A stretch of DNA of 64,000 nt from Fusobacterium massiliense (GTDB lineage Bacteria > Fusobacteriota > Fusobacteriia > Fusobacteriales > Fusobacteriaceae), in the NCBI RefSeq assembly GCF_900095705.1, contig NZ_LT608327.1, forward strand, positions 186,001 to 250,000, written 5' to 3'. This document shows positions 7,047-63,448 of the stretch, piece after piece (within the stretch, counting starts at the first letter, position 1; each line of letters opens with the position of its first letter). The notes beneath the pieces are model-generated. The model was not told the origin of the DNA. It made no database searches and saw nothing but the letters and a program-made list of their open reading frames with translations. A program made the position numbers and the translations under genes.

Positions 7047-7122
7047 AGTCTTCTGACAGCCGTATGAGTTCTCCGAGCTCAATAAACACAGGCTCTTCGA
7101 ACTAATACGGACGTCAGAGACT
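7047..7122 (-). repeat. 76-bp palindromic repeat, copy 1
   Basis: A full copy with outer arms AGTCTTCTGAC and GTCAGAGACT, inner arms CCGTATGAGTTC and GAACTAATACGG, and loop region GAGCTCAATAAACACAGG. The AT-rich flank is present in reverse complement downstream (7131-7153, TATTTAATTTTATACTCTTC). It lies between two divergent genes, mtnN and lpxL, so it is not simply a terminator. Confidence 0.9.
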
Positions 7123-7214
7123 AAATTTTGCTATTTAATTTTATACTCTTCTACAGAATAAAAAATTAAAATGAAATTTATGAGATAGAATTAAAAAATT
7201 AATGGAGGATTAAT

Positions 7215-8105
7215 ATGTATTATATTCAATATATTATTGCTAGATTTTTTATATTTTTATTGCTTTTGTTACCAGAAAAAGCTAGATTTAAGTTTGGAGA
7301 TTTTTTAGGAATGGTCGCTTATAAATTAATTAAAAGTAGGAGATTAACAGCTATTATAAATTTAAAGATGGCCTTTCCAGAAAAAGGAGATGCAGAAATA
7401 GAAGAAATAGCAAAAAAATCTTTTAAAATTATGATAAAAGCTTTTTTGTGTTCTTTATGGTTTGATAAATATTTTAAAGATACTTCAAATTATAAAATAA
7501 TAAATCAAAAATCTGTTTTTGATGCCTATGCAAAGGGACAAGGTGTAATGGCTGCAACAATGCATATGGGAAATATGGAAGCTAGTACTGTTGTAACAGG
7601 AGAAAATGAAATAATAACAGTTGCTAAAAAGCAAAGAAATCCGTATATAAATAAATATATTACAGAAACTAGAAGCAAAGTAGTTAAAATGGAAGTTATA
7701 GAAAAAGATGAACATACAAGTAAAAAATTAATTTCTAAATTAAAAGAGAGAAAAATATATGCTTTGTTCTCTGACCACAGAGATAAAGGAGCAATAGTTA
7801 ATTTTTTTGGAAAAGAGACTAAGGCACCAAGTGGAGCAGTTTCAATGGCTTTAAAGTTTGGTATGCCATTATTGCTTGTATATAATGTTTTAAACGATGA
7901 TAATACTATAACGATATATGTAAGTGATGAAATTCAAATGATAAAAACAGGAAATTTTAAAGAAGATGTACAGTCAAATGTTCAATTGTTGATTAATAAA
8001 ATGGAAGATATTATAAGACAGAATCCAACACAATGGATGTGGTTCCATGATAGATGGAATAATTTTAGAGAATATAAATCAATGAAAAAGAAAGGTTCTT
8101 TTTAA
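7215..8105 (+). CDS. Lysophospholipid acyltransferase family, lipid A acyltransferase (LpxL/HtrB type)
   Basis: A 296-residue member of the LpxL/LpxM late acyltransferase family, which transfers an acyl chain from acyl-ACP onto Kdo2-lipid IVA at the inner membrane. The N-terminus has one hydrophobic anchor (about 6-20). The catalytic HX4(D/E) motif is H117-MGNM-E122, and SDHRDKG and PSGAVSMALKFGMPLL further on fit the fold. The C-terminal TQWMWFHDRW segment is highly typical of the family. Length is close to the usual 300 residues. The start has ATGGAGGATTAAT upstream. Which acyl chain and position it serves cannot be told. It supports a Gram-negative envelope. Confidence 0.88.
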   Translation: MYYIQYIIARFFIFLLLLLPEKARFKFGDFLGMVAYKLIKSRRLTAIINLKMAFPEKGDAEIEEIAKKSFKIMIKAFLCSLWFDKYFKDTSNYKIINQKSVFDAYAKGQGVMAATMHMGNMEASTVVTGENEIITVAKKQRNPYINKYITETRSKVVKMEVIEKDEHTSKKLISKLKERKIYALFSDHRDKGAIVNFFGKETKAPSGAVSMALKFGMPLLLVYNVLNDDNTITIYVSDEIQMIKTGNFKEDVQSNVQLLINKMEDIIRQNPTQWMWFHDRWNNFREYKSMKKKGSF

Positions 8106-8142
8106 AAAATAGTAATAAATTTAGAATATAATATAAACTTTT

Positions 8143-8207
8143 AGAGAGTTAAAATTTTTGTAAGCAATTTTTAATTGTAAAAACAAAAATGAAAAAACTC
8201 TCTTTTC
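8143..8207 (+). terminator. Intrinsic terminator after lpxL-type gene
   Basis: AGAGAGTT at 8143-8150 pairs with AACTCTCT at 8196-8203, extended inward by AAAATTTTT/AAAAA pairing, and is followed by TTTTC. Confidence 0.6.
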
Positions 8208-8229
8208 TAATTTTAGATAAGTTTTATTA

Positions 8230-8258
8230 ATGACAAATTAAAAAAAATATAGTATAAT
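8230..8258 (+). promoter_or_regulatory. tRNA-Arg promoter
   Basis: ATGACA at 8230-8235, a 17-base spacer and TATAAT at 8253-8258, ending 11 bases before the tRNA 5' end. Confidence 0.7.
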
Positions 8259-8269
8259 TTAAAAAGTAT

Positions 8270-8346
8270 GACCCCGTAGCTCAGTTGGATAGAGCAACCC
8301 CCTCCTAAGGGGTAGGTCGTGCGTTCAATCCGCATCGGGGTCGCCA
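8270..8346 (+). tRNA. tRNA-Arg (anticodon CCT)
   Basis: A complete cloverleaf: acceptor stem GACCCCG (8270-8276) pairs with CGGGGTC (8336-8342), discriminator G, and encoded CCA at 8344-8346. The anticodon stem ACCCC/GGGGT encloses the loop CTCCTAA, anticodon CCT, reading AGG. The T arm contains GTTCAATC. The 3' end overlaps the reading frame of the integrase remnant on the other strand, which marks this tRNA as an integration site. Confidence 0.95.
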
Positions 8347-8710
8347 TAATAGCCGATTTTTTGCACTTTGAAGAGTATTAATTCAATTTTATCTTTAAAG
8401 ATTTTTATATCTTTTACAAAAGTTTCAATAATTTCTGTATCAATATCTTTGTTATTTCTTTCTTTGAAACTATTAAGAATTTCTATGATTTCATCTTCTG
8501 TAAGAACTTTATCTTTATTTTCTTCAATAAAATAAAGTTTAGACTTAATTGTATCAATTTCCTCCTTTATCTTTCTACTTTTTATTTTAAATGTTTCTTC
8601 AGGAATAAAATCACCTAAGCTTCTATCTAAAAGTTTTAAAGCTTTTTTATTTAGTTTTTCCATTTCTTTTTTATATTTTTCAATTTTTGTTACCACTTCT
8701 TTATTTAAAA
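8325..8710 (-). pseudogene. C-terminal remnant of a large serine recombinase (integrase)
   Basis: The minus strand encodes about 125 residues typical of the C-terminal coiled coil and tail of large serine recombinases: KYKKEMEKLNKKALKLLDRS, a segment DFIPEETFKIKSRKIKEEID, and the terminal FVKDIKIFKDKIELILF. The catalytic resolvase domain and zinc ribbon are missing. The open frame continues upstream to 8834, but the added residues are unrelated and lie opposite another fragment. The last codons (GYYGDPDAD) are read through the 3' end of the tRNA-Arg gene, so the integrase 3' end overlapped its attachment site. I interpret this as a decayed integrated element. Confidence 0.72.
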
Positions 8711-8748
8711 AAATATAAAATAAAGAGGCTAGAAAGAATATTTTAAAT

Positions 8749-9014
8749 ATGCCTAATGAAATGATTGAAGAAACTATAAGAGATTCTAAAACTGAATCTG
8801 AAAGCATATTAGCATTAGAGATAGGGCATAGCATAGAAGATATAAAAGAAACTTTAGTTGAAATTAAAAATAAGGGTATTATTGAAATCCCTGAAAAATT
8901 AAAGACTACAAGGAAGTAAATATAGATAACTTAGTATATGATGTAAAAACTAAATGGAATGATATTCCAGTACAAAAAAAGAAAAGGTTGAGAGCTTATT
9001 TAAGAAGATATTAA
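8749..9014 (+). pseudogene. Frameshifted gene fragment of probable phage/element origin
   Basis: An ATG at 8749 opens 56 codons ending at the TAA at 8917-8919 (MPNEMIEETIRDSK...). A second frame, shifted by one base, runs from 8916 to the TAA at 9012-9014 (VNIDNLVYDVKTKWNDIPVQ...) and looks like a natural continuation ending in a basic tail. The segment IGHSIEDIKETLVEIKNKGI resembles a winged-helix piece such as those in phage replication proteins, but this is a weak likeness. No ribosome site is evident. I treat it as island debris between the integrase tail and the toxin-antitoxin pair. Confidence 0.4.
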
Positions 9015-9086
9015 AGATTATAGGGGAATAAAGATAAGCAGCCAACTTGTCTGATAAAAATAAAAAAAATTAAAGGAGTGACAAAT

Positions 9087-9329
9087 ATGTCGACATTGTA
9101 TGATTTAACATTAAAAAAAGAAGTTGCAAGAGAATGTGCTTGGGGAGTAATGGGGACTATTAGTAGAATTGAAAATAAAAAAGGAGAAAATGAAGTTTTA
9201 AATTTAATAGAAAAAAAAGTTTGGGAAAAAACAATGGATATTCCAAAAATGACTCTTGAAGAAGTTGAAAAATTTGATATAGAAGTAGATTTTTTAATAT
9301 CTCTTCTTTCAGAATTGGAGGGTAAATAA
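9087..9329 (+). CDS. Putative antitoxin of the zeta-type toxin
   Basis: An 80-residue acidic protein (MSTLYDLTLKKEVAR...) directly upstream of a zeta-toxin gene and overlapping its start by one base (TAATG). I chose the ATG at 9087: a TTAAAGGAG ribosome site ends 8-9 bases before it, and the alternative GTG at 9078 lies inside that site. Predicted mostly helical. It is not the classic Epsilon sequence as far as I can judge, so its antitoxin role rests on size and position, which are the norm for such modules. Confidence 0.65.
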   Translation: MSTLYDLTLKKEVARECAWGVMGTISRIENKKGENEVLNLIEKKVWEKTMDIPKMTLEEVEKFDIEVDFLISLLSELEGK

Positions 9330-10231
9330 TGGAAATAGAAAAAAATTATACTAATAGTGAACTTGAGTTTGCATTTAAAAAAATTTTAAAGAAATATACT
9401 CAAGATTATTTACCGAATGATAATCCAAAAGTATTTTTACTAGGAGGTCAACCAGGTGCTGGAAAAACAGCTTTAGAAAATATGATTAATATAAATAATG
9501 AATATATATCAATAAGTGGGGATGATTTTAGAGAATATCACCCTTTATTTAAAGAATTGAATAAGAAATATGGTAAAGAAGCTTCCAAACATACTCAACA
9601 ATGGGCTGGAGAGATGACAGAAAAACTTATAAAAGAACTAAAAGATAATAAATATAATTTAATCATTGAGGGAACTTTAAGAACTGCTGAACTACCTTTA
9701 AAAGAAGCGACTAGATTTAAAAAAGTAGGTTATGAAGTTGAATTGTGTGTTGTAGCTGTTAAACCTGAGAAATCAAGATTAGGGACTTTAGAAAGATATG
9801 AGACAATGCTAAAAAGAGGGAAGACTCCTAGAATGACTCCTAAAGAACATCATGATTTAGTTGTTAATAATATTCCTGATAATTTAGATGTCTTATATAA
9901 GTCAGGAAAATTTGATAATATTAGATTATTTAATAGAGATAATGAGTGTTTATATAATTTAAAAGAAACTCTTGATATTAGCCCTAAAGAAATTATTAAT
10001 CAAGAATTTAATAGTGAATGGAAGTTAAATGAGATTGAAGAATACAGAGAAAGATGGAATAATTTAATAGATGGTATGCAAAAAAGAGGCGAAGATAGAG
10101 ATGAAATTAAATCTCTAAAATTTGAAAGAAACTTTATTATAGATAGAATAAACAATTTTAAAGATATTAAAGAACATTCTAATATTTTTAATTCTGTCCA
10201 AAAGAATAAAGATAAAGATTTTGATAGATAA
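9329..10231 (+). CDS. Zeta-toxin family kinase (UDP-GlcNAc kinase-like)
   Basis: A 300-residue P-loop kinase of the zeta toxin family, which phosphorylates UDP-N-acetyl sugars and blocks peptidoglycan synthesis. Walker A is GGQPGAGKT (39-47). ISGDDFREYHP (62-72) contains the conserved aspartate and DxFR..HP substrate motif, and IEGTLR near residue 113-118 is the usual second sugar-binding motif. The last ~60 residues are a charged helical extension. Translation is coupled to the antitoxin by a one-base overlap. It is intact, unlike the neighbouring island genes, consistent with selection for retention of an addiction module. Confidence 0.82.
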   Translation: MEIEKNYTNSELEFAFKKILKKYTQDYLPNDNPKVFLLGGQPGAGKTALENMININNEYISISGDDFREYHPLFKELNKKYGKEASKHTQQWAGEMTEKLIKELKDNKYNLIIEGTLRTAELPLKEATRFKKVGYEVELCVVAVKPEKSRLGTLERYETMLKRGKTPRMTPKEHHDLVVNNIPDNLDVLYKSGKFDNIRLFNRDNECLYNLKETLDISPKEIINQEFNSEWKLNEIEEYRERWNNLIDGMQKRGEDRDEIKSLKFERNFIIDRINNFKDIKEHSNIFNSVQKNKDKDFDR

Positions 10232-10250
10232 AAATAAACAGGTGTGAAAT

Positions 10251-10284
10251 AAAAAGACTACTAATTGCAATTAGTAGTCTTTTT
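10251..10284 (+). terminator. Terminator of the toxin-antitoxin operon
   Basis: AAAAAGACTACTAATTGC is followed by its exact complement, giving a 13-bp perfect stem (AGACTACTAATTG / CAATTAGTAGTCT) with a T run after it. The A run before it makes the hairpin potentially bidirectional. Confidence 0.85.
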
Positions 10285-10680
10285 GATATTTCTTTTTTCA
10301 TTTTATTACTAGTAGTATTATTTAAATAACTTAAGTATACTATTAATTATTTTAGCAAAAAAATTATTTCTAACAATTTTTTGCTAAATTTTCTATTTCT
10401 TCATATCCATCATAGAACTTATAATAAAATTCACACAGAAGTCAATCCTTATTAGTAAGTTAATATATCCAACTTTTTGAGGTCAGTACAAAATTGGTCT
10501 CTGATATTCGTATTAGTCCGAAGAGCGTGTGTTCATTGAGCTTATAAAACTCAAACAAATGTTGATGGATTTTATTTGTTATTTTATTTATAGAAGATAA
10601 AAATTAGATAAAAATCAAATAAAATACTAGCATATATTGCTAAAATATTATATAATTACAAGATACAAAAGTTTTTTTAA
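10285..10680. other. Gene-free stretch behind the island
   Basis: AT-rich DNA of about 400 bases with no open frame I can support. It contains one degenerate palindromic repeat (10496-10553). I looked here for a second copy of the tRNA-Arg 3' end that would mark the far attachment site and did not see one. Confidence 0.5.
10496..10553 (+). repeat. Degenerate copy of the palindromic repeat
   Basis: The left arm and loop are recognisable (GGTCTCTGATATTCGTATTA, then GAAGAGCGTGTGTTCATTGA) followed by a damaged right arm (GCTTATAAAACTC). The closing ATACGG...AGAGACT is lost. No TATAGGAAAG flank is seen. Confidence 0.7.
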
Positions 10681-10694
10681 ATGTGGAGGGTAAA

Positions 10695-11885
10695 GTGAAA
10701 TATTCAGATAGAGTAGAAAAAATGAAATATTCAGCTGTAAGGAAATTGGTTCCTTTAGCAACAGAAGCTGAAAAAAAAGGAGTAAAAGTCTATCGTTTAA
10801 ATATAGGGCAACCTAATATAAAGACACCAAAATCTTTTTTTGAAGGTTTAAATAATATAAATGATGAAGTTATAAGATATGCAGATTCAAGAGGAGTTTC
10901 TGAATTGCTTGATAGAGTAGTTGAAGTTTATGCTAGAGATGGACATATCTTAAATAGAGAAGATGTAATTGTAACTCAAGGTGGAAGTGAAGCTTTGACA
11001 TTTGTAGTTTCAGCAATTTGTAATGAAGGAGATGAGATTTTAATTCCAGAACCTTTTTATTCGAATTATAAAAGTTTTATTGATTTTGCAGGAGGAGTAA
11101 TAAAACCAATACCAACAAATATAGTTAATGATTTTGCACTTCCAAGTAAAAGTGAAATAGTTAAATTAATATCTCCTAAGACAAAAGCAATATTATACTC
11201 AAATCCTTGTAATCCAACAGGAAAGGTTTACACAAAAGAAGAAGTAGAAATGCTTATAGAAATTGCTGTTGAAAATGATTTATTTATAATAGCAGATGAG
11301 CCATATAGAGAATTTATATATGACGATAATTTAAAATTCTATTCAGTTTTAGATTTTGAAGCAAAAGAAAATATTGTAGTTATAGACAGTGTTTCAAAAC
11401 ATTATAGTGCTTGTGGTGCTAGAGTTGGTTTTTTAATTTCAAAAAATAAAACATTTATGAATTATGTTATGAAGTTTTGTCAAGCTAGACTTGCTGCACC
11501 AACTGTAGAACAATATGCAGTAGCTAGTTTAATGAAAGAACCGAAAGAGTACTTTAAAGAAATTAAAGATATTTATAACAGAAGAAGGGATATTATAGTT
11601 AATTCTTTAAATAAAATAGAAGGAGTTACTTGTTCGGCACCTAATGGAGCAATTTATGCTTTTGCTAAATTACCAGTTGATAGTACGGAAGAATTTTGTA
11701 AATGGTTATTAACAGATTTTAGATATGAAAATTCAACTGTTATGATGGCTCCAGGGGAAGGTTTCTATGAAACTGAAGGTTTAGGAAAACAAGAAGTAAG
11801 ACTTTCGTTTTGTGTAGGAGAAGAAGATATAGAAAAAGCAATGAAAGTTTTAGAAGAAGCATTAAAAGTTTATAATAAAAGATAG
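10695..11885 (+). CDS. Class I/II PLP aminotransferase (aspartate aminotransferase-like)
   Basis: A 396-residue fold-type I aminotransferase. Motifs in order: NIGQPNI near 33-39, YSNPCNPTGKVY (substrate-binding Asn), IADEPYREFIYDD (cofactor Asp), and SVSKHYSACGARVG, with the PLP-binding lysine in SVSKHYS. R in EVRLSF near residue 370 would bind the alpha-carboxylate. It resembles subgroup I-gamma aspartate/aromatic aminotransferases; the donor/acceptor pair cannot be fixed. The GTG at 10695 is preferred because GGAGGG at 10685-10690 is correctly spaced before it, whereas the GTG at 10683 overlaps that site. Confidence 0.88.
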   Translation: MKYSDRVEKMKYSAVRKLVPLATEAEKKGVKVYRLNIGQPNIKTPKSFFEGLNNINDEVIRYADSRGVSELLDRVVEVYARDGHILNREDVIVTQGGSEALTFVVSAICNEGDEILIPEPFYSNYKSFIDFAGGVIKPIPTNIVNDFALPSKSEIVKLISPKTKAILYSNPCNPTGKVYTKEEVEMLIEIAVENDLFIIADEPYREFIYDDNLKFYSVLDFEAKENIVVIDSVSKHYSACGARVGFLISKNKTFMNYVMKFCQARLAAPTVEQYAVASLMKEPKEYFKEIKDIYNRRRDIIVNSLNKIEGVTCSAPNGAIYAFAKLPVDSTEEFCKWLLTDFRYENSTVMMAPGEGFYETEGLGKQEVRLSFCVGEEDIEKAMKVLEEALKVYNKR

Positions 11886-11895
11886 GAGAGTAAAA

Positions 11896-12225
11896 ATGAA
11901 AAAAGTTTTAATAATGTTAGCTTTAATATCAACTATAGCTAGTGCAACTGAAAAGTTTTCAGAGTTTTATATAATGGAAAAAGTTTTACCTCAATTATCT
12001 AAAGCACAAAGTTATACATTTGATGGAAAAGAATATAAGGCAGTAAAAGTAGATAAAAAAATATTAAAAGCACTAGACACAAGTAGTGATCCTTTTTATT
12101 ATACTAATTCAAAGAATGAAACAAAAATGGTAAGAATAGGAGATTATATAATAACACCTATGACATTTTCAGAGATAGATTCTATTGATATGAATTACTT
12201 TAAAGATAATTTTATAAAAAAATAA
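11896..12225 (+). CDS. Small secreted protein, unknown
   Basis: A 109-residue protein with a clear signal peptide (MKKVLIMLALISTIASA, cleavage expected near residue 17) and a mature part of about 90 residues with no motif I recognise and no cysteine. It sits 10 bases behind the aminotransferase and 21 bases before the YihY gene, each with its own ribosome site, so it is part of the same transcript. Probably periplasmic. Confidence 0.7.
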   Translation: MKKVLIMLALISTIASATEKFSEFYIMEKVLPQLSKAQSYTFDGKEYKAVKVDKKILKALDTSSDPFYYTNSKNETKMVRIGDYIITPMTFSEIDSIDMNYFKDNFIKK

Positions 12226-12246
12226 TATAATTAAAGAGGAAAAAGA

Positions 12247-22843: not shown

Positions 22844-22940
22844 TATAGGAAAGTATAAAATAAAAGTAAAAATTAGTCTCTGACGTCCGTATTAGTTTGA
22901 AGAGCCTGTGTTCATTAAGCTCGTAGAATATCAAGAGACT
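22844..22940 (+). repeat. Palindromic repeat, copy 2, with AT-rich flank
   Basis: The flank TATAGGAAAGTATAAAATAA (from 22844) is followed by the core at 22875-22940. The left arm is normal (AGTCTCTGACGTCCGTATTA), but about 10 bases are missing from the right arm (GTAGAATATCAAGAGACT), so ATACGGCTG is lost. It follows the aroC terminator immediately. Confidence 0.88.
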
Positions 22941-31619: not shown

Positions 31620-31695
31620 AGTCTCTGACGTCCGTATTAGTTCGAAGAGCTTGTATTCATTGAGCTCCTAGAACTCATACGGATATTAAGAGACA
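31620..31695 (+). repeat. Palindromic repeat, copy 3
   Basis: Full-length core with arms AGTCTCTGACGTCCGTATTA and GAACTCATACGG; the closing arm is altered (ATATTAAGAGACA). The upstream flank is degraded (TTTAAAGTATAAATCTAAAA). It lies between convergent genes (receptor 2 and the permease) and is followed by TTTTTTTATT, so here it would serve as the shared terminator. Confidence 0.88.
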
Positions 31696-44229: not shown

Positions 44230-44345
44230 TATAGGAAAGTATAAAATTAAATAGCAAATAGCAAAAAATAGTCTCTTGACAGCCGTATAAGTTCTACGAG
44301 CTCAATGAACGCAGGCTCTTCGAACTAATACGGACGTCAGAGACT
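44230..44345 (-). repeat. Palindromic repeat, copy 4, with AT-rich flank
   Basis: The flank TATAGGAAAGTATAAAATTA (44230-44253) is followed by the core 44270-44345. The core is in inverted orientation relative to copies 2, 3 and 10 (left arm AGTCTCTTGACAGCCGTAT, right arm ACGGACGTCAGAGACT), while the flank is in the same orientation. The two parts therefore vary independently. A T6 run follows. Confidence 0.92.
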
Positions 44346-50505: not shown

Positions 50506-50594
50506 AAAATGAAATTGAAAGGGAGCTATAATTATAGCGGCTATTTGTCAAATAGTGTTGATGAAAAAGTTTAGACTATGACTTAGCATAATTA

Positions 50595-50636
50595 AGAGAA
50601 TTTTTGAGAATAAAAACTTGAAAATTCTCTTTTTTT
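50595..50636 (+). terminator. Terminator inside the left end of the IS
   Basis: AGAGAATTTT (50595-50604) pairs with AAAATTCTCT (50621-50630), followed by TTTTTT. It points rightward, so it would stop transcription entering from nifJ and protect the transposase gene from antisense transcription. Confidence 0.7.
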
Positions 50637-50669
50637 ATTGTTACTAAAATTCATTATTGCATAAAAAAA

Positions 50670-51956
50670 TTAGGCATTAATTGAAACAATTCCTTCTTGA
50701 ATTAATATACGCTTTTTAAAATTGCTAAATTTTGAATATCCAAATGCAGTTCTTTTTATTGATTTAATTTTATTATTTAAACCTTCTATTACTCCATTAG
50801 TAATATTAGTTTCAAACATATTTTTAATATATTCCATATATTTTTTAAGAGTTTTTAAAGCAACTCTCATTTTCTCAGAAATTTTTTCTTTACTTCCAAG
50901 ATATTTTTCTACTATTCCTTCAAATTTTTTAAAATTATTATGTTTAATTGCTTGGATAATATCTTGATATATATTAAAATTAATTTCTAATTCAGGTATT
51001 TTATCAAGAATATAATCTACTTTATCTTTACTACTTAATTTGTACTTAAAACTTTGACAGTAGTATTTTATTTCGCAAAGGTCAGGGTAATATTTTAATA
51101 ATAACTTCCAAAATCTCTTTAATTTTCTTTTTAAAGAAGGATCTTGAATAGAGTTCATAATATATATTCTAGTTTGATTAAATGCTCTGTTAATAAGGTT
51201 AACAATATGAAATTTATCTAAAACTATTTCTCCATTAGGAAAGATAGATTTAACTAAGCTAATATATGGAGCATACATATCCATACAAATATATTTCACA
51301 TTATTTTTAGATTTTAAAGAAAATCTAGAAAAATATTCTGTAAGAGAAGGAAGTCTTCTATCTTCCACTATATCGATAATGCTCTTACTTTGAAAGTCAG
51401 CAAAAACAAAAGACATAGCGCCATCAATATTTTTAACAGATTTAAATTCATCAATACAAATAGTTTCTGGTAAATGTTCTCTATTAACTTTAAAATTAGA
51501 ATAGCAGGTATCCATAATTCTTTGCACAGAAGAGACGGAAATATTATATCTCTTAGCAATAGATGTAAGAGAAATATTTTTTTGAAGTTCAAGCGCGATA
51601 GTATATTTAAGATTATTAGATATACTAGAATTATTACTAACAACATTAGTGGAAGGTGAAAAAGTTTTTTTACAATCCTTACAAATATACCTTTGTATAG
51701 TAAGCTCAAGTTCAATATTGTAATTCTGGTAAGGAATATACCTAACTTTACGAATTCTTGAACCATTTTTAACAATATTTTTAGAGTTACAATGTGGACA
51801 AGCACAGTGATTAGATTTAAGAAATCCTTTAAAAACTTTAATAAAGAAATCGTTTTTTTTAATAATTTGAAAATAGTTTTCTTCTGGAAAAGAAATATTA
51901 TTATCTTGAATATTTAAGATATTTTTGATAAAATCAGATGGAGACAATGAAATCAC
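50670..51956 (-). CDS. ISL3-family transposase
   Basis: A 428-residue DDE transposase. The N-terminus carries a zinc ribbon (CPHCNSKNIVKNG, and CKDCKKTF), then a helix-turn-helix (SLTSIAKRYNISVSSVQRIM). The RNase H-like core follows, with ICIDEFKSVK (first Asp), CMDMYAPYISLVKSIFPNGE (second Asp) and ITNGVIEGLNNKIKSIKRTA (Glu). This is the full ISL3 layout and length, so it is likely intact. The start has AGGAAGTGATTTC upstream. Confidence 0.92.
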   Translation of the reverse strand: MISLSPSDFIKNILNIQDNNISFPEENYFQIIKKNDFFIKVFKGFLKSNHCACPHCNSKNIVKNGSRIRKVRYIPYQNYNIELELTIQRYICKDCKKTFSPSTNVVSNNSSISNNLKYTIALELQKNISLTSIAKRYNISVSSVQRIMDTCYSNFKVNREHLPETICIDEFKSVKNIDGAMSFVFADFQSKSIIDIVEDRRLPSLTEYFSRFSLKSKNNVKYICMDMYAPYISLVKSIFPNGEIVLDKFHIVNLINRAFNQTRIYIMNSIQDPSLKRKLKRFWKLLLKYYPDLCEIKYYCQSFKYKLSSKDKVDYILDKIPELEINFNIYQDIIQAIKHNNFKKFEGIVEKYLGSKEKISEKMRVALKTLKKYMEYIKNMFETNITNGVIEGLNNKIKSIKRTAFGYSKFSNFKKRILIQEGIVSINA

Positions 51957-52085
51957 TTCCTTTATGGTTATTTTGAGCGATTTAATTTTAACAGGAAAAT
52001 TTCATTGTCTCAATTTTTTTTTTATTAAAAAATGGCATTAATAGAAATTTTTTCTATCAACACCATTTAGTATACAACCCTTATT

Positions 52086-52108
52086 TATAAGGAAAGTATA
52101 AATTTAAA
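52086..52108 (+). repeat. Solo AT-rich flank of the palindromic repeat
   Basis: TATAAGGAAAGTATAAATTT matches the flank that precedes other copies, but no palindrome follows. It begins 6 bases after the right end of the ISL3 element. It may be the remainder of the original nifJ downstream region, in which a terminator and then this motif are expected. Confidence 0.6.
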
Positions 52109-52209
52109 GAGATATAAATAATATATGTGGTATATATATATATACTAAATAAAAAATAGTGTTTTTTTGAAAAAAATCTTTAAAATAATTAAAAATTTGC
52201 ATCACAAAA

Positions 52210-52235
52210 AGCTCTAATGAAAAATACTCATTAGA
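52210..52235. other. Hairpin at the 3' end of the IS91-like transposase gene
   Basis: CTCTAATGA, a 7-base loop and TCATTAGAG form a perfect 9-bp stem just beyond the transposase stop codon. IS91-type elements carry a subterminal palindrome near the replication end, so this is a candidate; it could also be an ordinary terminator for the minus-strand gene. Confidence 0.45.
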
Positions 52236-52241
52236 GAATTA

Positions 52242-53447
52242 TTAGAAATATACCTTATGTATGGTCCGTCCATACCAATCTGAGCTAACATATATTTCTT
52301 GTATATCCATCATAATTTTACAATAAGGACACATAAATGGATGTACACCAAATGTATCAATAGATTGTTTTACATAAAAAGAATATTCAGATTTAGAAAA
52401 ACTTTTTTTGTATTTCTTAACTATATTTCTTAATTTTGCTGTAATATTGTGCCCATAAAATCCAAATCTATTAATCATTTTAAAATTTTTTGGAGGTAAA
52501 TGGATAAGAATTTGTTGAACAAATTTATCTATATCCATAGTTACATATTTTTTCTTTTTCTCATCAGCTAAATCATTAAAGAAGAAAGTAACTTTTTCAT
52601 TATCATAATAAGTGATTTTGTATTCAGCAATGGGAGCACGAGCGAGATATCTACCTAAATATTTTACAATTCCTTTAGGTGAATTAACATCACCAGAGCC
52701 TACATTAAAGAATAATCTTTTATCTTCTTTATATAATTTAGAAACAGCTTTTTGAGCAAGATTTTTAATTTTAAGATTAGGATAATTACTATTTTGAACA
52801 ATATTAAGGACAAGATACTTTCATTGCCCAGCAATAGAAGGAACATGAAAGTAGTCTAACTTTTTAAAAGTAAAATTTTTGGTAAAGCCACCAAGAGAAA
52901 CAAGAGCATGTATATGTGGATTCCATTTTAGATCTCTGCCAAAAGTATGAATAACAGTGATAAGTCCATAATGAACAATATCAGAATTAGTAAAATAATT
53001 AGGAGAAGATTTAGGAACTTTAAATTTTCGAGCGATTTTTTTGTGCATATTATGAAATTGATATTTCATAACTTCATTAATAGTCTTAGCAAGTTTAGAG
53101 AGTAAAGTTCTATCATAACAAAAAAATGCTCTTAATTCTTCAGGAATAGTAAAAAGAATATGCCTATGAGGAATATTAAGAATATCATTAGTCATCTTTT
53201 GAGTCCAAGTAGCAGAGTATTTAAAACCACAAGAAGGACAAAGTCTAGATTTACAAGTAATAGGAATGGTATGGTAATGTCCACACTCAGTACAAGTATA
53301 TTTAATGAAACCAGTTTTAATATCACGACAAAGTAAGAATTTGTTGATAGAAGCCTTAATATATTCAAAATGTTGTTGAGTTAAAAAAGGGTTGATAAAA
53401 TTAAGAATATGTGATAAATTAACTAGGGATAGTATTTCTTTAATCAT
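52242..53447 (-). pseudogene. IS91-like (Y2/HUH) transposase interrupted by one nonsense codon
   Basis: The minus strand has one continuous frame of about 401 codons broken only by a TGA at 52821-52823 (SIAGQ-stop-KYLVLNIV), where homologues would be expected to have Trp (TGG). The N-terminal zinc ribbon is intact (CTECGHYHTIPITCKSRLCP then SCG). It is followed by IPHRHILFTIP and the metal-binding HUH motif in WNPHIHAL. The part after the stop has GIVKYLGRYLARAPIAEYKI, which carries the catalytic tyrosine region, and FYGHN near the end. Upstream and downstream parts both lack other defects, so the loss is recent, or the copy may be read through. Confidence 0.85.
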
Positions 53448-53502
53448 GAGATATTACTCCTTTCTGTATGTTTTAGTGCAAATAAATTTTACAGAAAAAG
53501 AG

Positions 53503-53550
53503 AGCCAATTGCAAAAGATTTTTTTAAAATCTGCAATTGGCTTTTTTTTT
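53503..53550 (+). terminator. Strong hairpin with T run before the ABC genes
   Basis: AGCCAATTGCA (53503-53513) pairs with TGCAATTGGCT (53532-53542), with further GATTTT/AAAATC pairing inside, followed by ten T residues. It points rightward although no plus-strand gene lies directly upstream. It may insulate the ABC operon from the insertion sequences or be the displaced end of an older transcript. Confidence 0.7.
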
Positions 53551-53577
53551 TAAAGTATATTTCTTTTTAATAAATAT

Positions 53578-55357: not shown

Positions 55358-55360
55358 ATA

Positions 55361-57138: not shown

Positions 57139-57186
57139 AGCAATTCATCTCCCACTTTTATAAGTAGGAGATAAATTGCTTTTTTC
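57139..57186 (+). terminator. Terminator after the ABC pair
   Basis: AGCAATT-C-ATCTCC pairs with GGAGAT-A-AATTGCT across a CACTTTTATAAGTA apex, followed by TTTTTTC. Confidence 0.85.
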
Positions 57187-57192
57187 TTGTTC

Positions 57193-57318
57193 TATAGGAA
57201 AGTATAAATTTAATATGAAAATAGTCTCCGACGTCCGTATTACTCTGGAAAGCATTTCGGTGAGCTCGGAAGAGTCATACGGCTGTCAGGTGACTTATAG
57301 GAAATGATAAAATTGAAT
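57193..57318 (+). repeat. Palindromic repeat, copy 5 (divergent, flanks on both sides)
   Basis: The core 57223-57295 is the most diverged full copy, yet it keeps its pairing. Inner arms are CCGTATTACTCT and AGAGTCATACGG instead of CCGTATTAGTTC and GAACTCATACGG, and the outer arms have CC/GG instead of CT/AG. The loop also differs (GGAAAGCATTTCGGTGAGCTC). The AT-rich flank occurs both before (57193-57215) and after (57296-57318, TATAGGAAATGATAAAATTG), in the same direction, so it may be a direct repeat bounding the unit. Confidence 0.88.
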
Positions 57319-57457
57319 AGCTAATATTTATATTTTATTTAAATAGAGAGGATTTATAGGGCTGTTAAACTATTTGGTTCATAAAAATATAACTGCTTGA
57401 CTTTTTTAATTATAAGTTATAAGCTATTGCTATAATTTTACTTTAATGAGGAATTTT
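57319..57457. other. Leader of the next gene
   Basis: About 140 bases of AT-rich DNA without a gene. A TTGACT at 57397 lies upstream of TATAAT at 57431, but the spacing of 28 bases is too long for a normal promoter, so none is annotated. Confidence 0.35.
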
Positions 57458-57994: not shown

Positions 57995-58016
57995 ACTTCT
58001 CAGATATAATGTAAAT

Positions 58017-58080
58017 AAAAATCCCTGATTTCTACGTGGCTTATAGTATACTTATAAGTCATATCAATATCAGGGTTTTT
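58017..58080 (+). terminator. Terminator after the VanZ-like gene
   Basis: AAAATCCCTGAT (58017-58028) pairs with ATCAGGG (58068-58074) followed by TTTTT; a second small stem (CTTATAG / CTTATAAG region) fills the apex. Confidence 0.75.
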
Positions 58081-58084
58081 ATTT

Positions 58085-58190
58085 TATAGGAAAGTATAAA
58101 TTTAAATGCTTATTAGTCTCTTGATAGCCGTATGAGTTCTACGAGCTCAATGAACACAGGCTCTTCGAACTAATACGGAGGTCAGAGACT
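58085..58190 (-). repeat. Palindromic repeat, copy 6, with AT-rich flank
   Basis: The flank TATAGGAAAGTATAAATTTA (from 58085) precedes the core at 58115-58190, which is in inverted orientation (AGTCTCTTGATAGCCGTATG ... ACGGAGGTCAGAGACT). The core ends 3 bases before the stop codon of the convergent ROK gene, so it would form the 3' hairpin of that minus-strand transcript. Confidence 0.92.
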
Positions 58191-58193
58191 ATT

Positions 58194-59141
58194 TTATATA
58201 AATAAGGCAACGGCTCCTTTAATACCAGCTTCATTACCTAAAGTTCCTATTTTTAATTCAACATCTTTTAAAGCAGTTGGAAGAGCATATTTTTCCAATT
58301 TTTCTTTTATAGGATTTAAAATTTCATCACTAGCTAAAGATATCCCACCACTTATAACAATACATTCAGGATTAATTATGTTAAGTAAATTAGCAATACC
58401 TAGAGCAAGATATTCACTTTCGTAATCAATTAACTCAATAGAAAGATGATCACCTAGTTTAGCCATATCAAAGATGTTTTTAGCTTCTAATTTATCCAAA
58501 TCGTTATCGATACTTTTTAAAAGTAAACTGTTAGGAAAATCTTTTAATCTTTCTTTTGCAACACGAACAAGAGAACTAGCAGAGGCATAGGCTTCTAAAC
58601 AACCATTTTGTCCACAACCACATTTTCTACCATCTCTAGCAATTTTCATATGTCCAACTTCTCCACCTACACCATTTATTCCAGATAGAAGAGTCCCATT
58701 AATATAAATTCCTGCTCCGATACCAGTTCCTATAGCAAAAGTAATAGATGATTTTTTACCTATTGCTGCACCAAAAAGAGCTTCTCCTTGAGCAATAACA
58801 TTTACATCATTTTCAACTCTAGTCTCAATACCTGAAATTTTTTCCATCTTTTCTTTTAGATTCATATTCTTTTCCCAATTAAAATTAGCAAAAAAACCAA
58901 CTATACTTTGTTCTTTAACAGGTCCAGGAATTCCGATACCAATACCAACAACAGAAAACAAAGGAATTTTCTTTTCTAATACCAATCTCTTTGCTTCTTC
59001 CCAAATTCTTGTTAAGGTATTATCTGCATTTTCATGAGAATTAGTTTTTATGATACTTGAATTTATAATATTTCCTTCAATATCAACTATACCTATTTTA
59101 GTGTTAGTCCCACCTAAATCAATACCAATGTAATGTTTCAT
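58194..59141 (-). CDS. ROK-family sugar kinase (glucokinase-like)
   Basis: A 315-residue ASKHA kinase of the ROK family, phosphorylating glucose or a related sugar with ATP. The N-terminal GIDLGGTNTKIGIVD (about 5-19) binds phosphate; IGIPGPV (about 69-75) and TGIGAGIYING follow. The ROK zinc site is complete (CGCGQNGCLEAYAS, near 175-188) with the preceding GEVGHMKI histidine. No N-terminal helix-turn-helix, so it is a kinase, not a repressor. Start with AAGGAGCACTTTTTT. It lies 26 bases behind trxB in the minus-strand group. Confidence 0.9.
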   Translation of the reverse strand: MKHYIGIDLGGTNTKIGIVDIEGNIINSSIIKTNSHENADNTLTRIWEEAKRLVLEKKIPLFSVVGIGIGIPGPVKEQSIVGFFANFNWEKNMNLKEKMEKISGIETRVENDVNVIAQGEALFGAAIGKKSSITFAIGTGIGAGIYINGTLLSGINGVGGEVGHMKIARDGRKCGCGQNGCLEAYASASSLVRVAKERLKDFPNSLLLKSIDNDLDKLEAKNIFDMAKLGDHLSIELIDYESEYLALGIANLLNIINPECIVISGGISLASDEILNPIKEKLEKYALPTALKDVELKIGTLGNEAGIKGAVALFI

Positions 59142-59167
59142 AAAAAAGTGCTCCTTTTAATAAAAAA

Positions 59168-60109
59168 TTATTTTGTAGAATTTTCTTTTTTTGATTTTAA
59201 TATTTCTTTTAAAATAATTGTTGTAGCTATCACACCATCATTAGTTGCTGTTGCAATTTGTCTAACTTCTTTTTCTCTGATGTCTCCTATTGCATACATT
59301 TTATCAGTTCTAGTTTTCATTGACTCATCTGTCAAAATATAGCCACTAGGACTTAAGTTCACAAATTCTCCATATAATTCAAGATTATTTTTAGTTCCTA
59401 AATATAAAAATACAAAATCTGTAGGGAAAACTTCCTTATTTCCAGAAACTTCAAGATGAAGTTCAGTAACAAACTCTTCACCAGTAATTTCTAACAATTT
59501 TATATTTTTAGTTATTTTTACATTTTCTTTAGAAAGAATAGCTTCTTTTAACTCATCGTTACAATCTAAATTTTCAGATGTTAGGAAAATATTAACTTCT
59601 TTTGCATATCTAGTTAAAAATAATGCTTCTTCAATAATTTCATCTCCTTTTCCAACTAAAGATACAACTCTTCCTTTTGTAAAGGCTCCATCACAAGTTG
59701 CACAGTAAGATACACCAGCACCTAAGAATTTATTTTCACCTTTAACTTTTTTTGCACCTATTTTTCCAAGACCAGTTGCTATAATAATATATCTAGTTTT
59801 GAAATTTCCTGCATCTGTTTTTACAATTTTTATCTCATCATAAGGGTCAAATCCTAAAACAGTAGCTGCCTTAATTTCACAACCAAATTCAATAGCTTGT
59901 TTTTTCATTGAGGCATAAATTTCTTTTCCACTTGTTCCTGATGGGAAACCAGGGTAATTATCAACTTGATGTGTCATTATCATACTTCCAATACCTTCTT
60001 TTTCAAGTATAAGAGTATCAAGATTACCTCTACCTGCATAAATTCCAGCTGATAGTCCAGCAGGACCAGCTCCAACAATTACAATATCATAAATTTTATT
60101 TGTGTCCAT
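59168..60109 (-). CDS. trxB: Thioredoxin-disulfide reductase
   Basis: A 313-residue low-molecular-weight thioredoxin reductase. The FAD motif IVGAGPAGLSAGIYAGRG (about 11-28), redox pair CATCD (C136 and C139), NADPH motif LVGKGDEIIEEALFL (GxGxxx with D in place of the usual second G/S) and C-terminal YAIGDIREKEVRQIATATND are visible. The second glycine motif of the NADPH site is not quite canonical, so an alternative electron donor cannot be excluded. I start at the ATG at 60109 with GGAGATGTATTT; an upstream extension of 12 codons overlaps the neighbouring gene and is not needed. Confidence 0.9.
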   Translation of the reverse strand: MDTNKIYDIVIVGAGPAGLSAGIYAGRGNLDTLILEKEGIGSMIMTHQVDNYPGFPSGTSGKEIYASMKKQAIEFGCEIKAATVLGFDPYDEIKIVKTDAGNFKTRYIIIATGLGKIGAKKVKGENKFLGAGVSYCATCDGAFTKGRVVSLVGKGDEIIEEALFLTRYAKEVNIFLTSENLDCNDELKEAILSKENVKITKNIKLLEITGEEFVTELHLEVSGNKEVFPTDFVFLYLGTKNNLELYGEFVNLSPSGYILTDESMKTRTDKMYAIGDIREKEVRQIATATNDGVIATTIILKEILKSKKENSTK

Positions 60110-60131
60110 AAATACATCTCCTATCTTAATT

Positions 60132-60755
60132 TTAAAGAATACCAATTCTTTTTAAAAACATTTTTTCATCAGCTATAGTTGTAACTTCTGTATGTCCACT
60201 ATATACAAGAGTTTGATCTGGAAGTTTAATTAATTTTTCAAGACTTTTAGCTAACATATCAAAATCACCGGTAGGCAAGTCATATCTTCCATAACTTCTT
60301 CTAAACAGAGTATCACCAGATATTAAAATATTGCTTTCTTCATTATAGAAACATTTAGAACCAATAGTATGTCCCGGAGTATCTAAAACTAAGAAATCTC
60401 CAATTAAATCTCCTTCTTTTACAGTTGTATATGTACCATTAAATTTAAAATTTTCTCCAAATATCCTATCAGAAAGGCTATATTCTGAATTAAATAAGAA
60501 ATCTTTTTCTTCTTCACCAATAAAGACTTTCGCATTTGGAAAATGATTAGCCAGCTCATTTAAACCTTGAATATGATCACCATGACCATGAGTTAGTATT
60601 ATATATTTTAAATTTAATTTATTTTCTTCAATAAAATTATACAAACTTGATAAATTTAATCCGCCACAGTCAAAAAAGTAAGCCTCTTTATTGTTATTAT
60701 ATGTTAAATAACAATTTGTTCCCATGGCACCTAAATGAAAACATTTTATTTGCAT
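60132..60755 (-). CDS. Metallo-beta-lactamase-fold hydrolase (glyoxalase II-like)
   Basis: A 207-residue single-domain MBL hydrolase with the metal motif THGHGDHIQG (HxHxDH, 56-61), later metal ligands in DTPGHTIGS and SGDTLFRR, and the final H in YSGHTE. Size and motif set fit the YcbL-type glyoxalase II subgroup. The start codon lacks a visible ribosome site (TACTAAACTAACT before ATG), but the N-terminus MQIKCFHLGAMGTNCYL matches the family, so the start is kept. It is the first gene of the minus-strand trio. Confidence 0.86.
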   Translation of the reverse strand: MQIKCFHLGAMGTNCYLTYNNNKEAYFFDCGGLNLSSLYNFIEENKLNLKYIILTHGHGDHIQGLNELANHFPNAKVFIGEEEKDFLFNSEYSLSDRIFGENFKFNGTYTTVKEGDLIGDFLVLDTPGHTIGSKCFYNEESNILISGDTLFRRSYGRYDLPTGDFDMLAKSLEKLIKLPDQTLVYSGHTEVTTIADEKMFLKRIGIL

Positions 60756-60954
60756 AGTTAGTTTAGTACAATAAATACAAAAAGTATTTATTTATACAAT
60801 CTCCTTTCATAATATACTGTCTTTAATGTCAATAAATTAATTATATCAAAATATACTAAAATAGTCTATCTTTAATCTAAAGATAAAAAGTCATATTCTA
60901 TGGATTGATAAAATATATAAATATATATAATAAAAATATTTTTATAAAAAATAA

Positions 60955-61030
60955 AGTCTCTTGACAGCCGTATGAGTTCTACCAACTCAATGAACACAGG
61001 CTCTTCGAACTAATACGGACGTCAGAGACT
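60955..61030 (-). repeat. Palindromic repeat, copy 7
   Basis: Full core (AGTCTCTTGACAGCCGTATG ... ACGGACGTCAGAGACT) with a loop variant ACCAACTCAATGAACACAGG. The AT-rich flank follows in reverse complement (61039-61061, TTTAATTTTATACTTTCCTA). It lies in a divergent region between the MBL gene and the YhdT-panF operon. Confidence 0.92.
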
Positions 61031-61152
61031 AATTTTATTATTTAATTTTATACTTTCCTAATATAATCAAAAAAGTCTTTATAAATAATAAAAAACGTAT
61101 GTTATTTATATTCTCTATATATGTGTATATCTATTTTTATTAAATAAAAGTA

Positions 61153-61182
61153 TTGAACTTTTTTAAAAATTGATGATATAAT
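61153..61182 (+). promoter_or_regulatory. Promoter upstream of the YhdT-PanF operon
   Basis: TTGAAC at 61153-61158, an 18-base spacer and TATAAT at 61177-61182. It leaves a leader of about 150 bases in which I see no known riboswitch. Confidence 0.55.
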
Positions 61183-61336
61183 AGGAGCCAATCAAAATAT
61201 TGTATAATAAAAAAACAAAATATAGACTTATAAAATTCTTAATAACTATAATAATTCGTAAAAAAAAATCATATAATTCTTCTAGTTTTAAATTATACGA
61301 TATTAAATTATGATATTTTTGGAGGTAATAAAAAAA

Positions 61337-61645
61337 ATGAAGGAAAACTCTAAGAAAAGAGAAATTTCTAAACAAATTAATAAAGAGGTTATAGTAACAT
61401 TAGTTCTTTATCTAATCTATTTTTTGTGGTGGTATTACTTTGCTTATGAATTTTCTACAGATAATGTTGAAGACTATAAGTATATTTTAGGACTTCCTGA
61501 ATGGTTTTTTTATTCTTGTGTTGTAGGTTTAGTCCTTATCAATTTTTTAGTTTTTCTTGCTATAAAATTCTTTTTTAAAGAAATAGATCTTGATGAATTT
61601 GAAAAAAATGAAGAAACAAATCAAAATAATAAGGAGAACAAATAA
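61337..61645 (+). CDS. YhdT-like small membrane protein
   Basis: A 102-residue protein with a charged N-terminus, two membrane helices (about 19-36 and 60-82) and an acidic, Asn/Glu-rich tail. The segment LVLYLIYFLWWYYFAYEF, then the LGLPEWFFYSCVVG motif, is typical of YhdT, which is regularly encoded just upstream of panF in the same operon and probably serves as an accessory subunit. The ATG at 61337 follows GGAGGTAATAAAAA. PanF begins 2 bases after its stop. Confidence 0.85.
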   Translation: MKENSKKREISKQINKEVIVTLVLYLIYFLWWYYFAYEFSTDNVEDYKYILGLPEWFFYSCVVGLVLINFLVFLAIKFFFKEIDLDEFEKNEETNQNNKENK

Positions 61646-61647
61646 AA

Positions 61648-63099
61648 ATGAATAACTTTTTAATATTAGTACCAATAGTAATTTATTTGTTGGCTATGTT
61701 GTATATTGCATATAAAGTAAGCGAGATAAAAAATAATGCTAAAAGTTTTACGGCAGAATATTTTATTGGAAATAGATCTTTAGGTGGTTTTGTTTTAGCA
61801 ATGACAATAGTTGCAACCTATATAGGAGCTAGTTCATTTATCGGAGGTCCTGGAATTGCATATAAATTAGGACTTGGTTGGGTATTACTTGCCTGCATAC
61901 AAGTACCAACAGCTTTTTTTACTTTAGGAATATTAGGAAAAAAGATGTCTATCATATCTAGAAAAATAAATGCTATAACGGTTTTTGATATTTTAAAAGC
62001 TAGATATAATAGTAATTTTTTAAATATACTCTCATCAATAATACTTGTTATGTTTTTTATAGGAGCTATGGTTGCACAATTTATTGGTGGAGCAAGACTA
62101 TTTGAAACAGTTACAGGGTTACCATATATTACAGGTCTTATAATTTTTTCAACAGTTGTAATAATTTATACAACATTTGGTGGATTTAGAGCAGTTACAA
62201 TAACAGATGCAATTCAAGCTGTTGTAATGTTTTTAGCAACATTAGTTTTATTCATAGTAATTTTAAAAAATGGACATGGTATGCAAAATATAATGCTAAA
62301 AATAAAAGAAATTGACCCTAATTTATTAAGACCTGATTCTGGTGGAAATATAGCTAAACCTTTTATAATGTCATTTTGGGTTCTAGTAGGTATAGCTATT
62401 TTAGGTTTACCAGTTACAACCGTTAGATGCATGGCTTTTAAAGATAGTAAAGCAATGCATAATGCTATGATAATAGGTACTTCATTAGTTGGAATATTAA
62501 TTTTAGGTATGCATTTGGTTGGAGTAATGGGAAGAGCAGTTATAACAGATTTAACAGATGCAGATAAAATTATACCAATATTAGCTCTAAAAAATTTACA
62601 CCCATTATTAGCAGGAGTTTTTATTGGAGGTCCTTTAGCAGCAATAATGTCATCAGTTGATTCTGTTCTTATACTATCATCTTCAACTTTAATCAAGGAT
62701 ATGTATATAGGATATTTTGATAAAACAGCAAGTGAAAAGAAAATAAAGAAAATATCTATGATTACATCATTAGTAATAGGAATTTTAGTATTTATTTTAT
62801 CAGCTAAACCACTTAGTTTAATTGTTTGGATCAATTTATTTTCATTATCTGGACAAGAAATAGTATTTTTACTTCCTTTGATATTTGGGTTATACTGGAA
62901 AAGAGCTAACTCAACAGGAGCTATAATTTCTATATTAGGAGGAATTCCAGCTTATTTATTTTTAGAAATAACAAAGATAAAAGTTTTTGGACTTCATAAT
63001 ATAGTTCCATCTTTAGTAGTTGCTTTTGTATTATTTGTTATAGGTTCATATCTTGGAAAAAAAGATGATGAAAAAACATTAGAAATATTTTTTGAATAA
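61648..63099 (+). CDS. panF: Sodium/pantothenate symporter
   Basis: A 483-residue sodium:solute symporter (SSS family) with about 13 helices. Features: EYFIGNRSLGGFVLAMTIVA (about 38-57), ASSFIGGPG (sodium site region), TTFGGFRAVTITDAIQAVVM (near 181-200, family signature), and GGPLAAIMSSVDSVLI. Coupling to the YhdT-like gene favours pantothenate as substrate, since that pair is the usual context of PanF. It ends just before the methionine-riboswitch unit. Confidence 0.9.
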   Translation: MNNFLILVPIVIYLLAMLYIAYKVSEIKNNAKSFTAEYFIGNRSLGGFVLAMTIVATYIGASSFIGGPGIAYKLGLGWVLLACIQVPTAFFTLGILGKKMSIISRKINAITVFDILKARYNSNFLNILSSIILVMFFIGAMVAQFIGGARLFETVTGLPYITGLIIFSTVVIIYTTFGGFRAVTITDAIQAVVMFLATLVLFIVILKNGHGMQNIMLKIKEIDPNLLRPDSGGNIAKPFIMSFWVLVGIAILGLPVTTVRCMAFKDSKAMHNAMIIGTSLVGILILGMHLVGVMGRAVITDLTDADKIIPILALKNLHPLLAGVFIGGPLAAIMSSVDSVLILSSSTLIKDMYIGYFDKTASEKKIKKISMITSLVIGILVFILSAKPLSLIVWINLFSLSGQEIVFLLPLIFGLYWKRANSTGAIISILGGIPAYLFLEITKIKVFGLHNIVPSLVVAFVLFVIGSYLGKKDDEKTLEIFFE

Positions 63100-63131
63100 T
63101 AAAAACTAATAAAAAAAATTAAAAAAAATTA

Positions 63132-63160
63132 TTGACAAAAAAACTAGAATATTATATACT
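63132..63160 (+). promoter_or_regulatory. Promoter of the SAM riboswitch-metN unit
   Basis: TTGACA at 63132-63137, a 17-base spacer and TATACT at 63155-63160; the transcript would start near 63167, some 25 bases before the riboswitch. Confidence 0.8.
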
Positions 63161-63191
63161 TACACAAACAATCAAAATTGATGTGTGAATA

Positions 63192-63273
63192 ACCATCCAG
63201 AGAAACTGAGGGACTGGCCCTGTGATGTTTCAGCAACCTACTTTATGTGTGGTGCTAATTCCAGAGAGATGGA
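63192..63273 (+). ncRNA. SAM-I riboswitch (S box) aptamer
   Basis: P1 is CCATC (63193-63197) with GATGG (63268-63272). In between are the conserved S-box pieces: CAGAGAAACTGAGGGACTGG, GGCCCTGTGATG, TTTCAGCAACCT, a P3 hairpin around ACTTTATGTGTGGT, and GCTAATTCCAGA with GAGAGATGG. Order and spacing match the SAM-I class, which turns genes off when S-adenosylmethionine is abundant. It leads a methionine ABC importer gene. Confidence 0.93.
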
Positions 63274-63296
63274 GAGGCTATATATTTTTAAATACC

Positions 63297-63328
63297 AATC
63301 CATACTCTCAAAAGGGTATGGATTTTTT
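63297..63328 (+). terminator. Expression-platform terminator of the SAM riboswitch
   Basis: ATCCATAC (63298-63305) pairs with GTATGGAT (63316-63323) across TCTCAAAAGG, followed by TTTTT. An anti-terminator could form from the 3' side of P1 (GAGATGGAG) and the left arm, but I could not fold this in detail. Confidence 0.85.
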
Positions 63329-63339
63329 ATTTATTTATT

Positions 63340-63448
63340 TATAGGAAAGTATAAAATTAAATAAAGAAAATTAGTCTCTGACGTCCGTATTAGTTCGAAG
63401 AGCCTATGTTCATTGAGCTCGTAGAACTCATACGGCTGTCAAGAGACT
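63340..63448 (+). repeat. Palindromic repeat, copy 8, in the metN leader
   Basis: The flank TATAGGAAAGTATAAAATTA (63340-63363) and the core 63373-63448, near-perfect consensus (AGTCTCTGACGTCCGTATTA ... ATACGGCTGTCAAGAGACT). It is located between the riboswitch terminator and the metN start codon, so every metN message must pass through it unless a second promoter exists downstream. Confidence 0.93.

Follow-up and report, generated by a model that had tools for sequence, protein, structure and literature searches.

Insertion sequences of the IS91 type start transposition at one essential end and may stop at other sequences, so that transposition can be one-ended, and their transposase acts in trans (PMC3189936); the two ends are named oriIS and terIS (PMC13393415). 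One family member, ISFv1, is present in 47 chromosomal copies in Fusobacterium varium Fv113-g1 (PMC5720691). Here we analyze a window of 64,000 nucleotides from Fusobacterium massiliense (contig NZ_LT608327.1, positions 186,001 to 250,000; C6:186001-250000 in a genome, G000, of 1,809,170 bases in 6 contigs), in which a family of 76-nt palindromes lies scattered between the genes. We propose, at a probability of roughly 0.8, that these repeats are mobile but not autonomous, and that an IS91-type Y2 transposase acting in trans moves them, accepting an intrinsic terminator for its own hairpin end. What we read from the sequence is a shared head, a common architecture, a place behind a hairpin and T-run, tandem arrangement and confinement to intergenic DNA.

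The repeat unit and the insertion sequence with its head

A sequence-only reading of the window had named eight good palindromic cores, a degenerate copy at 10496 and a remnant at 20-60, and the palindrome is present at all ten places. Its consensus folds with z = -4.86 as DNA and -5.50 as RNA, none of 200 shuffles being equally stable. We built a covariance model on 20 copies. The nine that come from the window are recovered at E values no higher than 9e-14, and the remnant, which lies outside the model's rows, is matched at E 0.038. Searched across the genome, the model gives at least 150 scored matches, every one significant, so the family extends well beyond the few copies first seen. In 424 kb of contig C6 around the window, nhmmer finds 85 cores, which would extrapolate to about 360 in the whole genome. 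All but one of them (84/85) are intergenic, as the earlier reading had held for the window, although 91% of that 424 kb codes by simple open reading frame (ORF) calling. Cores occupy 72 of the 150 gaps of at least 60 bp between genes and 64 of the 100 gaps of at least 150 bp. The repeats have no Rfam match at gathering score; the window matches only a SAM (S-adenosylmethionine) riboswitch and one tRNA.

The palindrome is real, but what had been taken as a 76-bp unit forms just the tail of a longer one of about 118 bp. The full unit comprises the head TATAGGAAAGTATAAAWTTAAA of 22 nt, then an AT-rich spacer, the 76-nt core in either orientation, and a T-tract. Alignment of the flanks places this constant head about 20 bases from the core on one side and a T-rich stretch on the other, and the head matches nine times in the window against 0.04 expected. 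Relative to the head, 89 of 148 distinct cores read forward (F) and 30 in reverse (R), while 29 have no recognized head; inside the 424 kb the tally is 50, 12 and 23. The roughly 63 cores from beyond the 424 kb were drawn from best-match lists and the head search, and the sample therefore favors well-kept copies. With that bias, R copies are less diverged than F copies (median 1.3% vs 6.6%); their cores also score higher on average within the 424 kb (87 vs 69). A T-tract of at least 5 T in 8 follows the core in 105 of 119 copies. Where two cores lie no more than 140 bp apart, they are on the same strand and head-to-tail in 9/9 pairs, seven of them spaced 107-128 bp; the remaining two, spaced 74 and 75, each involve short copies.

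The same head ends an insertion sequence. In the Fusobacteriaceae genome G037, each of the ten exact heads marks the end of a copy of a single insertion sequence about 1.46 kb long. Its two frames match PF14319 (Zn_Tnp_IS91) and PF04986 (Y2_Tnp), and at the far end it carries a hairpin with TTTTTTTAT. An insertion sequence of this kind, bearing this head, is found at locus L219 and in the window at about 52085-53551 (minus strand, limits approximate). The window copy has its head at 52087-52108 and a Y2 HUH transposase frame at 52242-53447 (minus strand), which with TGA read as tryptophan matches PF14319 at E 9e-23 and PF04986 at E 1.5e-31. Visible in this frame are HIH and YLGRY (YxxxY), which we take to be motifs typical of this class of transposase. 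The far end of the insertion sequence, at 53503-53551 (plus strand), is the hairpin AGCCAATTGC..GCAATTGGCT with a T-tract, the counterpart of the core and T-tract of the repeats. The two ends are thus unlike, head against hairpin and T-tract, without terminal inverted repeats. Repeats and insertion sequence share about 22 identical nt in the head, and the insertion sequence's own end hairpin measures 40 nt against the 76 nt of the core. Matches to Y2_Tnp number five in the F. massiliense genome and are present in 22 of 61 family genomes.

A second insertion sequence in G037 stands as four tandem copies with an exact unit of 1442 bases, and three junctions fix its ends. Each junction runs from the head end through AT and an A-tract to the hairpin of the next copy; in the opposite reading, the element is joined to a hairpin with TTTTTTAT behind it. 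The tandem junction is TTTCCTAAAGA/ATAAAAAAAGCCGATTGG. Such arrays would fit rolling-circle transposition. For the window insertion sequence we find no tetranucleotide target of the GAAC/CTTG type; the junctions of these elements have the form hairpin-TTTTTTAT/head. Placement in the IS91 family rests on the transposase, because the target differs among family members. We also considered the head as a separate element. The three best heads in the 424 kb with no core nearby lie at C6 106357, 238087 and 436319; one is the window insertion sequence itself and another matches its first ~210 bases, and the idea was dropped.

For the window copies listed next, the strand given for a core is that of its F reading. 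On the plus strand, head and core lie at 22844-22865 and 22875-22940 (with a 10-nt deletion in the 3' arm of the core), at 57193-57214 and 57223-57295 (a variant subfamily with the inner stem altered on both sides), and at 63340-63361 and 63373-63448 (between panF and a frame preceded by a ribosome-binding site). The 57223 core is directly followed by a degenerate head, the remnant of a tandem unit, at 57296-57317 (plus). On the minus strand, cores at 7047-7122 and 60955-61030 have heads at 7134-7155 (3 mismatches) and 61041-61062. Two cores are inverted (R) relative to their own plus-strand heads: 44270-44345 (minus), whose head at 44230-44251 sits directly behind the hairpin and T-run GGAAGTGCTATACTG..CAGTTCCTTTTTT, and 58115-58190 (minus), with its head at 58085-58106. 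The plus-strand core at 31620-31695 has a weak head scoring below threshold, the degenerate core at 10496-10571 (plus) has none that is recognized, and the remnant at 20-60 is on the plus strand. The SAM riboswitch, at 63190-63275, is upstream of the 63340 element and the next frame. Another repeat, of 85-100 bp (TTATTTATCAAATAGTATTGATAAAAAAGTTTAGAC..) and ending in a terminator-like hairpin, occurs at seven places in the 424 kb: window 50540-50640 and C6 106139, 118984, 359376, 368846, 411626 and 475137. Its window copy adjoins an apparently intact ISL3-type DDE transposase at 50670-51956 (minus strand).

Position behind terminators and occurrence in relatives

Insertion sequence heads sit behind terminator-like structures. 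In genomes G025, G027 (taken as F. varium Fv113-g1) and G037, a hairpin at least as stable as -4 kcal/mol stands at the T-run in 29 of 30 heads; these 30 come from 27 of the 28 loci examined, the head pattern being absent at L276, and four of them are ends of another insertion sequence copy. Among control T-tracts with AT, a hairpin was found at 13/60 intergenic sites and 9/60 sites in ORFs, in each of F. gastrosuis and F. massiliense. The small repeats behave similarly: a T-run precedes the head in 105 of 117 cases against 49/117 mirror flanks, and a hairpin with a T-run in 67/117 against 6/117 (p = 3.5e-19). At 14 of the 117 heads, what lies upstream is the end of another core copy. The upstream gene is co-directional with the element in 45 of 62 cases (p = 0.0005).

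The G027 copies also show a strand preference. Among the matches listed, 41 of 42 chromosomal transposase copies are on the strand expected as lagging-strand template, against an ORF baseline on that strand of 139/192 in 14 sampled stretches (p = 0.0002, tandem copies not being independent); the strand call assumes an origin near the record start, as the GC skew indicates, with 2 of the 14 stretches off skew. Such a replichore bias would suit recognition of single-stranded DNA. For the repeats of F. massiliense, the strand bias is no greater than that of genes (38/55, hand count).

The core model gave no match in two congeners with normal filters and none in 58 further family genomes with stricter filters. 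Raising the E limit to 5 brought no match either in 400 kb of F. gastrosuis (G001), the closest named relative by PFOR protein (88%). Neither the core nor the 124-nt unit was found in plasmids, phages or viral contigs, and the core as an exact pattern was not found in a species genome collection, from which near records may be left out. For 7 of the 85 sites a gene pair of F. gastrosuis allows comparison. The F. gastrosuis gaps are shorter by a median of 132 bp, though one is longer; the flanks are too diverged for target duplications to be called.

The head reaches further. With up to two mismatches it matches 239 times in F. massiliense, 12 times in F. gastrosuis and twice in G002, reversed-pattern controls giving 0 in these three; counts in the other family genomes stay at control level, except in G037 with its ten exact matches. 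At the 11 head loci read in F. gastrosuis and G002 the core never follows the head, and at least six lie behind a terminator, as judged by eye. A T-tract joined to a head is a pattern present in 34 of 98 Fusobacteriota genomes, representing 12 of 29 genera; the reversed pattern gave 3 matches in total.

Proposed mechanism and rival explanations

In the mechanism that we favor, the head TATAGGAAAGTATAAAWTTAAA would be the end that the transposase recognizes in a branch of IS91-family insertion sequences found in Fusobacteriaceae. Lying downstream of the transposase gene, as oriIS does in IS91, it would correspond to oriIS. The other end, a DNA hairpin with T-tract that in the repeats is the 76-nt core, would correspond to terIS. 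The transposase would join the head to a hairpin that has TTTTTTAT behind it. Since any intrinsic terminator has this hairpin-TTTTTTAT form, elements would land directly behind terminators, between genes, and leave the terminator whole. Each insertion would add a new hairpin and T-tract and with it a renewed target, from which head-to-tail tandems could grow. Intergenic position, orientation along the upstream gene, the seat behind a terminator and the tandems would all follow from the fact that terminators imitate the hairpin end. The hairpin is probably recognized as single-stranded DNA and the repeats are probably moved in trans, and landing behind terminators looks to do little harm. The first repeat may have arisen when one-ended transposition from the head stopped at a chance hairpin.

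It is tempting to extend this to the phylum. A Fusobacteriota-wide IS91-type branch may target terminators, its Y2 enzyme taking any hairpin with T6AT, as single-stranded DNA and preferentially on the lagging-strand template, for a mimic of its own terminus; safe sites would then renew themselves, chance hairpins would become mini-elements, and the transposase might be read through an in-frame UGA. We judge this wider version about an even bet. Either way, a large orphan repeat family is tied to a transposase, with a simple rule for its position. If the proposal is true, the terminator, needed in every bacterium, is a generic safe harbor for an HUH transposon, and the target would accordingly be chosen by DNA shape and not by fixed sequence. 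This would bear on the origin of REP-like (repetitive extragenic palindrome) repeats, on their intergenic placement and on site choice by programmable single-strand transposases.

The in-frame TGA deserves comment. It falls at the same codon in three long F. massiliense copies (window 52821-52823, L219 and L217), where the G037 relatives have tryptophan; in G037, a different tryptophan position is TGA in eight copies, and another 14 copies are free of such a codon. Two of the F. massiliense copies differ at a synonymous divergence (dS) of 0.47, with a nonsynonymous-to-synonymous ratio (dN/dS) of 0.17 overall and 0.20 downstream of the TGA, and selection therefore seems to have acted past it. 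Identity near the TGA is about 89% between these two, so no recent conversion tract is evident. Read-through would be one explanation; the other would be that intact copies, now lost, once moved these in trans.

Several observations speak against our proposal. In the same test that supports the terminator target, 50 of 117 repeat heads have no hairpin, and the window insertion sequence itself has no clear terminator in front, by eye. No whole transposase copy is seen in F. massiliense: each of the three long copies contains the in-frame TGA, and the remaining two matches are short and close to contig ends. Heads occur in F. gastrosuis and G002, yet Y2_Tnp is matched in neither. In sequence the core does not resemble the hairpin that ends the insertion sequence itself, and the mechanism leaves both the origin of the core and its inversion relative to the head unexplained. 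Within the 424 kb, 23 of 85 cores have no recognized head, and four cores are embedded in another element, which has inverted ends of its own and lacks a T-tract. The sites comparable with F. gastrosuis are few, with one gap running the wrong way, and the case is built from sequence, no movement having been observed.

The fold of the core bears on a different explanation, in which the core is mainly a host functional RNA or DNA element, such as a back-up terminator, a 3'-end stabilizer or a protein-binding site, multiplied and retained for its usefulness and with the transposon head incidental. The hairpin is very stable, nearly two-thirds of the larger gaps are occupied, and the core stem is maintained: over 119 oriented copies, 2593 of 2775 paired cells are Watson-Crick and a further 87 are G-T, while 72, across 11 of 25 pairs, are altered on both sides with pairing kept. 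Paired G/C columns also diverge less than unpaired ones (9.8% vs 17%). A/T columns hardly vary whether paired (3.7%) or unpaired (4.1%), so low divergence at A/T mismatch positions is no proof of a recognized fold, and the conserved mismatches that had suggested one are partly explained by mutation bias. Read in the orientation of the head, G-T pairs outnumber A-C pairs, 87 vs 51 (p = 0.003), as a selected transcript would give; the cells are not independent, however, as copies share descent, and by distinct pairs (18 vs 15) there is no real difference. Moreover, the core occurs in both orientations and sits behind a terminator already in place, and the closest relatives do not have it. We consider a host element unlikely.

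Two mobile-element alternatives had been raised from the palindromes themselves. One was a REP/BIME-type repeat (BIME, bacterial interspersed mosaic element) whose mover would be a TnpA/RAYT-type HUH enzyme (RAYT, REP-associated tyrosine transposase). Its wider half holds up, an HUH enzyme being best supported, and extragenic palindromes in high copy number, often paired, are what a Y1 TnpA-REP would leave. The enzyme indicated is nevertheless a Y2 of IS91 type, favored over Y1 because insertion sequences of the Y2 transposase share the repeat's head. For Y1, the whole genome has only a 47-codon PF01797 remnant beside an IS605-like TnpB frame, and a Y1 transposase was rejected as the mover; we regard this route as very improbable. 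The remnant belongs to a decayed IS605-like element at locus L158 (C6:363776-366889), its TnpB-like frame assigned by eye. The other alternative was a miniature inverted-repeat transposable element (MITE). The repeats are indeed small and non-autonomous, but they have no terminal inverted repeats. A MITE of a DDE transposon could draw on the ISL3-type transposase in the window and on the four cores lying in an element with inverted ends TAAATTTTAATTT; the common unit, however, has unlike ends, with a head on both sides in none of 85 scored cores, which makes such an origin highly unlikely. Those four near-identical cores (C6 145082, 405458, 446435 and 467751; loci L143, L153, L155 and L156) themselves have GATAGCCC/GGGGCTAT ends, and the element around them is about 120-350 bp long.

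Comparison with known systems

In the open-licence papers searched, we found no report of terminator targeting by IS91-type elements. Group IIC introns insert behind intrinsic terminators; they differ in being retroelements, with no HUH enzyme. REP sequences are extragenic palindromes moved by an HUH enzyme, TnpA-REP (PMC8266576), much as we propose for the elements described here, whereas the F. massiliense family points to Y2 instead of Y1, has a long head and appears to target terminators. The SPRITE, BOX and RUP elements and strictly intergenic MITEs are likewise short, intergenic and clustered, with terminator-like hairpins; the excerpted review draws no link to an IS91-type transposase, the terms IS91 and HUH having 0 occurrences in that text (PMC10969869). 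From the same bacterial family, a 131-bp intergenic repeat of F. nucleatum is of similar length and may be a parallel, likened here by description and not by sequence (PMC1924603).

The closest precedents are within the IS91 family. The IS801 miniatures of Pseudomonas syringae are small derivatives that keep the essential end, end elsewhere and are served in trans, and stop-bearing IS801 copies are thought to be mobile (PMC3189936). These miniatures are few and are pieces of IS801 itself, whereas our repeats share only the ~22-nt head with the insertion sequence and have for a tail a separate, high-copy palindrome. IS91 and IS801 insert at tetranucleotides, such as GAAC for IS801 (PMC3189936), while the target here would be a hairpin with TTTTTTAT. 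ISFv1 is nearer still, with a Zn_Tnp_IS91 and Y2_Tnp transposase, a length of about 1.44 kb and unlike ends; the passage describing it is silent on terminators, a word absent from the text (PMC5720691), and the copies in G027 show the architecture found here. As an apparently intact relative, ISFv1 allows a direct test of the mechanism.

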